From Paraburkholderia sp. Tr-20389 (GTDB lineage: Bacteria > Pseudomonadota > Gammaproteobacteria > Burkholderiales > Burkholderiaceae): a stretch of DNA of 64,000 bases. Position 1 is the stretch's first letter. Every line of letters begins with the position of its first letter. The stretch is from positions 62,001-126,000 of the forward strand of contig NZ_JAAGPD010000008.1 of the NCBI RefSeq assembly GCF_017104565.1, in the 5' to 3' direction. Position numbers and translations under genes: made by a program. A model generated the notes under the pieces. The model did not search any database. It was not told the DNA's origin and saw only the letters and a program-made list of their open reading frames with translations. Of the stretch, positions 33,616 through 33,759 are shown piece by piece.

Positions 33616-33657
33616 AAAAAGCCCCCGAACCAGCGTTTTCACGCAAGTTCGGGGGCT
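33616..33657 (-). terminator. Intrinsic terminator in the amide operon leader (attenuator)
   Basis: On the minus strand an 11-bp perfect stem AGCCCCCGAAC / GTTCGGGGGCT, with a further GCG/CGC inner stem and a TGAAAA loop, is followed by TTTTT. It sits about 70-110 bases after the predicted transcription start and ends 17 bases before the first gene's start codon, so it would stop transcripts unless antitermination occurs. Confidence 0.88.
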
Positions 33658-33677
33658 ACGTAGCCTTCCATGTGTAG

Positions 33678-33720
33678 CACGGCATCGTTGCCGCGAGGTT
33701 GCCGACTTCACGTCGACAAC
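33678..33720 (-). promoter_or_regulatory. Candidate ANTAR target hairpins
   Basis: Two hairpins on the leader RNA (minus strand). The first, 33720-33698, pairs GTTGTCGAC with GTCGGCAAC (9 bp, one G-U) around a GTGAA loop. The second, 33695-33678, pairs CGCGGC with GCCGTG (6 bp, one G-U) around the hexaloop AACGAT, with A at position 1 and G at 4, the published ANTAR hexaloop pattern. The first loop does not match that pattern, so the site is partly canonical. Confidence 0.6.
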
Positions 33721-33730
33721 CGATGTGGCG

Positions 33731-33759
33731 AATCTAAGGCCTCCATATTTCGCCGTCAA
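33731..33759 (-). promoter_or_regulatory. Sigma70-type promoter of the amide operon
   Basis: Minus strand: TTGACG (33759-33754), 17-base spacer, TAGATT (33736-33731). Predicted start near 33724, giving a leader of about 125 bases. A perfect palindrome GTCAAC-GTA-GTTGAC at 33769-33755 overlaps the -35 box and could be an operator. Confidence 0.7.

Follow-up and report, generated by a model that had tools for sequence, protein, structure and literature searches.

What controls the operon of some 8.4 kb that lies on the minus strand of the 64,000-nucleotide stretch of Paraburkholderia sp. Tr-20389 DNA analysed here (the window), and which of the hairpins ahead of its first gene would be read by the ANTAR protein that the operon itself encodes? 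Few ANTAR-RNA pairs have been worked out at the bench in the literature that we examined. In the published motif, a hairpin P1 lies 5' of a terminator and a hairpin P2 at the 5' base of that terminator, each with a hexaloop bearing A at position 1 and G at position 4 (A1 and G4; PMC3369931); the two are also called the recruitment and antitermination hairpins (PMC8934654).

The leader and the operon

The operon runs from a nitrilase gene through a urea-type ABC transporter and an asparaginase gene to amiC and amiR. Its leader and genes are listed below.

33731..33759, minus strand: sigma-70-type promoter TTGACG-N17-TAGATT (sequence)
33697..33721, minus strand: P0, hairpin of 10 bp (loop GUGAA) at the transcript's predicted 5' end (fold, -16.1 kcal/mol)
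33678..33695, minus strand: P1, putative ANTAR recruitment hairpin CGCGGC-AACGAU-GCCGUG, hexaloop at 33689-33684, A1 at 33689, G4 at 33686 (fold, comparison)
33666..33677, minus strand: linker of 12 nt between P1 and P2, with a widely shared ACA(U) (leader comparison)
33654..33665, minus strand: P2, putative antiterminator hairpin GGCUACGUAGCC, read as GGC-UACGUA-GCC or GGCU-ACGU-AGCC (conservation; -3.5 kcal/mol alone)
33616..33656, minus strand: intrinsic terminator, stem 33656-33621 followed by U5 at 33620-33616 (-29.4 kcal/mol)
33609-33605, minus strand: GGAGA before the TTG start (33598) of the first gene (sequence)
32696..33598, minus strand: nitrilase-superfamily hydrolase (CN_hydrolase), TTG start, first gene (PF00795, 1e-56)
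31466..32629, minus strand: periplasmic binding protein of a urea/amide-type ABC transporter (best model UrtA, below cut-off)
30576..31427, minus strand: permease, UrtB-like (model below cut-off)
28733..30583, minus strand: permease-ATPase fusion, UrtC- and UrtD-like (models below cut-off)
28029..28736, minus strand: ATPase, UrtE-like (model below cut-off)
26983..27984, minus strand: asparaginase family protein (PF00710, PF17763)
25813..26973, minus strand: AmiC-like sensor (best matches 1qnl and 1pea, AmiC, E 1.2e-88)
25196..25816, minus strand: AmiR-like ANTAR antiterminator, AmiR_N plus ANTAR (PF21332, 4.9e-36; PF03861, 2.7e-12)

The amiC and amiR frames overlap in ATGA, and the best solved-structure match of AmiR is 1qo0. 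Relative to the AmiC of known structure, S85 and Y104 are kept and Y83S, N106S and P107I are changed, all at positions that we assume to lie near the ligand pocket. We take 1qnl, 1pea and 1qo0 to be the AmiC and AmiR proteins of P. aeruginosa. The identity of the solved AmiC and AmiR as P. aeruginosa proteins agrees with PMC3369931.

An earlier note on this DNA had placed a promoter, a 9-bp hairpin with a 5-base loop, a hexaloop hairpin and a strong terminator before the first gene, with an ANTAR protein and its AmiC-like sensor as the last two genes of the operon, and had proposed from these a self-activating attenuator. The promoter at 33759-33731, the AACGAT hexaloop hairpin with A1 and G4 at 33695-33678 and the terminator (a stem of -29.4 kcal/mol with U5) are all present, and sequence and domains place the two regulatory genes where the note had put them, at a distance of 8.4 kb; the 9-bp hairpin is also real, although its stem is of 10 bp and its loop reads GUGAA. 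The attenuator is still the best explanation of the locus, but the note had paired the wrong hairpins and overlooked P2 at 33665-33654. Only AACGAU and GGCUACGUAGCC show the published layout in the window, and they are therefore assigned as P1 and P2, the 10-bp hairpin becoming a third, P0. The loop bases of P2 are U1 (33662), G4 (33659) and A6 (33657), and the GCC at 33656-33654 is common to the 3' arm of P2 and the 5' base of the terminator.

As a whole the leader (33735-33605, 131 nt) is strongly structured (fold z = -5.9; 0/200 shuffles as good). In the window and in five relatives (L033, L034, L043, L048 and L052) the P1-linker-P2 fragment folds best into an alternative structure in place of P2. 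When the window was scanned for a P1 with A1, a P2 and a terminator, the element came top of both strands with a score of 23; 30 shuffled minus strands gave a score of 21 in three cases and no match in 20, so that the scan alone is modest evidence and conservation decides. The second match of the scan (score 22; maximum 21 in 30 shuffles), at 24914-24995 on the minus strand just 3' of amiR, has two hexaloop hairpins (AACAGA, and AGUGUU with A1/G4) ahead of a terminator hairpin; lying between convergent genes, it may be merely the terminator at the end of the operon.

Conservation and co-occurrence with AmiR

Leaders were collected by position from 29 AmiR loci in named genomes: a nitrilase gene was found in 23, and the 400 bases 5' of it were taken with no motif filter, giving 24 rows with the window (the six loci left over are truncated, fragmentary or orphan). 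The element stands directly 5' of the nitrilase gene in 23/23, and both A1 of P1 and the GGCUA of P2 are invariant in 24/24. A promoter of the form TTGAC-N17-TA lies 35-47 nt 5' of the P1 core in 22/24, L056 and L057 being the exceptions. Shortly 5' of the -35 box, 11/24 leaders have a palindrome resembling AGGG..CCCT (33789-33778, minus strand, in the window), to which an additional regulator might bind.

The stem of P0 covaries. In fixed columns of the 24 leaders its double-change cells number 26, where shuffles that leave the relatedness among leaders in place give 11.6 (0/500 as high), and its covariation score of 0.429 compares with a maximum of 0.195 when it is slid along the alignment; neither double-change pairs (8 against 6.6; 128/500 shuffles as high) nor pair types (123/500) are exceptional in number. 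The P0 loop is not conserved: both its sequence and its length (3 to about 12 nt) differ among leaders, and no A1/G4 is kept. A stem that is kept around a free loop marks P0 as an accessory hairpin, probably with a role in stability or folding.

A larger alignment of 41 distinct elements from beta- and alphaproteobacteria came from a script whose filter required A1 of P1 and GGCTA of P2, for which reason A1 and GGCUA, and hence U1, are uninformative in it. P1 is paired in 96.2% of cells, the 1-6 loop pair included, with three pairs changed on both sides, and an A-U combination occupies positions 1 and 6 of the loop in 39/41 rows. P1 and P2 together have 32 double-change cells, where shuffles of the same kind give 7.5 +/- 5.0 (0/500 as high), all in P1, since the invariance of P2 makes covariation no test of it; the three double-change pairs were reached by 155/500 shuffles and the pair types by 76/500. 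P1 with the terminator gives 62 such cells against 19.3 (0/500), and 8/13 terminator pairs are changed on both sides. In L054-L057, L066 and L083 P1 has A at position 4, and G4 of P2, present in the window, is not found in every relative (for example L055 and L057). Linkers measure 8-13 nt, leaving aside L066 and L113, in which a hairpin farther upstream was picked as P1 by the script; the eut linkers are of 5-12 nt, and one of 14 nt failed (PMC3369931). Relatives that escape the filter have P2 GGCUUUGAAGCC (L153), P2 GGCUGGCAAGCC (L114) or a P1 loop UGGAGA with P2 GGCUGUGCAGCC (L155 and L162). For this one type of AmiR, the alignment of 41 targets and their cognate proteins defines P1, P2, the linker and the extra 5' hairpin.

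Among 299 genomes of the family, a relative of AmiR (E <= 1e-20) occurs in 51, in 22 of these with at least 42% identity, and a covariance model of the element matches 31 at 0.01 and 22 at E <= 1e-6. The 22 genomes with a strong element coincide one for one with the 22 whose AmiR reaches 42% identity (Fisher 8.5e-34, a descriptive value only, as the genomes are related and all 22 elements or exact copies of them are in the model). With those elements in the model's alignment, only absence from the other 277 genomes is informative, and none of these has a model match below 1e-4. Nine weaker matches in the family lie between 2e-4 and 0.01, at least one of them (G244) being a leader of the Met type described below. 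The genome of the window has a single strong match (2.2e-19); two others, at E 0.04 (opposite strand, same terminator) and 0.34, were set aside as noise. Across 398 genomes of the phylum 14 match the model at 0.01, and the five matches that are independent of the model (G441, two each in G491 and G494; E 1.4e-9 to 1.4e-5) all adjoin an amiR gene. Those of G369 (8.4e-5) and G299 (1.4e-4) were rejected: they have no AmiR in the 3 kb retrieved and adjoin frames that we take to be chaperonin-like, so that matches near 1e-4 are unreliable.

In the full-operon loci of the Burkholderiales the element opens the operon and amiC-amiR close it; in Rhizobium and Paracoccus amiC-amiR come first and are followed by the leader and nitrilase operon, an order which shows that the pairing of element and AmiR survives rearrangement in the alphaproteobacteria. 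The constant core is the nitrilase and ABC transporter, and asparaginase, amidase or urease vary. Two family genomes have a second element 5' of amiC-amiR (L080:2351-2428 and L085:2060-2136), and in a Herbaspirillum locus (L057:523-698) two such attenuators stand in tandem ahead of the nitrilase gene; one AmiR may thus serve several leaders and, because the second element in L080 heads urease genes, may run a small regulon. An orphan amiC-amiR pair (L103/L049), 81-82% identical to that of the window, has no nitrilase operon or element in the fetched stretch; its genome, G068, holds a complete copy elsewhere. On a Labrenzia plasmid (L167:12569-12758), two attenuator-like elements stand in tandem before a urea-type transporter operon.

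A probable antitermination switch

It is very probable, on these comparisons of sequence, that the leader is an AmiC-gated AmiR antitermination attenuator, a known kind of switch. What the sequences show is a set of leader parts that are conserved, display covariation and occur together with AmiR; from these we infer how ligand, AmiR binding, antitermination and feedback would follow one another. With no inducer, AmiC would hold AmiR, and RNA polymerase setting out from 33759-33731 would be halted by the terminator after a leader RNA of about 110 nt. An amide-like ligand would bind AmiC and free AmiR, which would dock on P1 (AACGAU) of the nascent RNA and then hold P2. P2 would take the GCC at the terminator base, next to the U tract; with this GCC occupied the terminator could not close, and expression of the hydrolase, transporter, asparaginase, AmiC and AmiR would follow. 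As P2 alone is weak (-3.5 against -29.4 kcal/mol for the terminator) it would have to act during transcription, and the position of amiC and amiR at the end of the operon predicts positive feedback, fed by leak-through. The order of parts and the overlap of P2 with the terminator match the published ANTAR model. Against it stand U1 in the P2 loop, an AmiR that is without the Met essential in EutV, the invariance of P2, its weakness beside the terminator, the alternative folds of the P1-linker-P2 fragment, the unexceptional numbers of double-change pairs and pair types in P1 and P2, and the existence of orphan amiC-amiR.

The pairing assumed by the earlier note, with the 10-bp hairpin as first ANTAR hairpin, AACGAU as second and no P2 at the terminator, draws on two hairpins that are real and fold stably, P0 moreover being conserved as a stem. 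We regard it as very unlikely: the P0 loops, of 3 to about 12 nt, keep no A1/G4, AACGAU has no overlap with the terminator, so that this pair could not exclude it, and the invariance of GGCUA in 24 leaders would be left with no reason. It is also improbable, if slightly less so, that AmiR binds P1 only and that GGCUA is kept for pairing with a factor or for a pause. EutV does bind isolated hexaloops, and the minimal motif has been redefined as a single hexaloop (PMC8934654); P2, furthermore, is without covariation. However, GGCU is complementary to the terminator base in all 24 leaders (one base displaced where P2 is of 13 nt), as are the P2 sequences other than GGCUA in L153, L114, L155 and L162, and in the Met-type relatives this position is occupied by different P2 loops.

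Least probable of all, in our estimation, is an attenuator that answers some other signal (a metabolite, NasT or another protein) while AmiR acts elsewhere. The genome does encode two ANTAR proteins, the second NasT-like; yet the element and this type of AmiR occur in the same 22/299 genomes and stay together despite changed gene order, and Rfam gives no family at its gathering score in the window, the two matches below it falling far short. The NasT-like protein of this genome (L001) has Met at the plug position and adjoins what, from its translation, looks like a nitrate-sensor gene.

The attenuator preferred here has several known counterparts. In the P. aeruginosa amidase operon amiC and amiR are located downstream. 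That system shares with the window its AmiC- and AmiR-like proteins and a leader terminator ahead of the operon, there an amidase operon headed by amiE (PMC3369931). The window differs in its nitrilase-type hydrolase and urea-type ABC transporter, in Thr where the 1qo0 AmiR has Met, and in U1 of P2; for the amiE leader, A at position 1 and G at position 4 are reported (PMC3369931, by description only). With the 1qo0 AmiR as query 11/398 phylum genomes match, none above 36% identity; for the P. aeruginosa amiE leader, plasmid records gave 0/87 from Pseudomonas. E. faecalis EutV and its eut leaders are alike in the P1 hexaloop with A1/G4, in a linker within 5-12 nt and in a P2 at the terminator base, but the window system would sense by AmiC, with phosphorylation not expected, and has a U1-A6 P2 loop. 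NasR on the nasF leader is likewise ANTAR antitermination on a leader hexaloop (PMC3369931), and the dissociation of NasS-NasT on sensing nitrate or nitrite resembles that proposed for AmiC-AmiR (PMC3795266); both differ in their nitrate signal and sensor. Burkholderia is among the predicted ANTAR targets of PMC3369931, and the window element may be one of these. Nothing on AmiR leaders was found in the portion of PMC2965389 available to us, and no paper on this operon leader or on the substitution described below was recognised by title or abstract in the open-access literature searched.

The plug residue of AmiR and the P2 loop

Non-standard recognition had earlier been suspected from the 5-base loop of the first hairpin; the odd features are instead U1 of P2 and a residue of AmiR. 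In the EutV structure Tyr164 stacks on G4, Lys149 touches G4 and Met172 acts as a plug, is essential and may keep tetraloops out, and A1, which is uncontacted, may prevent cross-loop pairing (PMC8934654). Read from the alignment, the window AmiR keeps R142, K147, E160, Y164, R168 and R175 of EutV and differs in the RNA-contact region by M172T, K149I, N173S and R177T. Among 78 distinct AmiR rows the plug residue is Thr in 49, Met in 27, Lys in one (L056) and Gln in one (L171), labels which need four changes on an AmiR tree with long deep branches.

The A1 expected of the ANTAR motif is absent from P2, which has U1 in 24/24 position-chosen leaders (that of Lys-type L056 included) and in the Thr-type L153, L114, L155 and L162 outside the filter. 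The P2 loop of the Thr clade reads UAYGYA, which a U1-A6 pair can close. Single loop variations are allowed (PMC8164766), and in eutP RNA a change of A to U at P2 position 1 reduced induction (PMC3369931). For the Met-type proteins, 29 P2 loops were collected from 27 loci, 23 by a script with no condition on P2 base 1 and six by eye: 22 have A1 (ACAGAA in 12 of these, close relatives), three G1, one U1 (L165) and three are seven-base loops starting with C. Most have A1 and A6, a combination that cannot close. At least 14 Met-type or other loci yielded no element (L073, L079, L086, L089, L090, L110, L111, L170, L171, L183, L184, L190, L191 and L192), a count that leaves out L109 and the short loci L026-L032, L062 and L069; of the 14, L170 (Ancylobacter) has a P1-like AGUAUU hairpin with no clear P2.

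A strict rule joining Thr plugs to U1 and Met plugs to A1 was rejected, being broken by L165 (Aminobacter, Met-type, UAUGUA), by the G1 loops of L181 and two L167 leaders, by the seven-nt loops starting with C of L175-L177 and by L164, whose A1 loop AAGGGU is closable. A looser form is possible, though doubtful, namely that the Thr-type clade uses a different RNA code, in which an AmiR with no Met plug would read loops closed by a 1-6 pair and would be orthogonal to a Met-type circuit in the same cell. Under such a code P1 would be closed by A-U and P2 by U-A and, in two related genomes, P1 itself by U-A: in G491 and G494 the P1 loop UGGAGA has its 1-6 pair flipped from A-U to U-A (by eye), which fits a closed-loop code and is no proof of it. 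L165 speaks against a strict closed-loop rule, and the pattern of loop and plug may equally be one clade's inheritance. Both AmiR types occur with different P2 loops in G207 (L100/L173), G275 (L096/L174), G491 and G494, and also in G265, G270 and G075, where the Met-type loops are of seven bases. If the code were real, two paralogous antitermination circuits would be orthogonal through a single plug residue and loop closure, the Thr-type AmiR being kept off the leaders of the second, Met-type system in the same cell; such genomes offer a natural setting in which to ask how ANTAR proteins distinguish their leaders and, given orthogonality, a source of regulator pairs for synthetic circuits.

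Whatever the code, an RNA-recognition residue essential in EutV is replaced across the clade together with a changed P2 loop, and, as far as sequence can tell, it is this clade-wide variant of AmiR, the variant P2 and the extra 5' hairpin that set the switch apart from its textbook version. In four alphaproteobacterial leaders (L113, L066, L155 and L162) a hexaloop hairpin GAGC-AGGUUU-GCUC stands just 5' of P1 and may be a third hairpin with A1.
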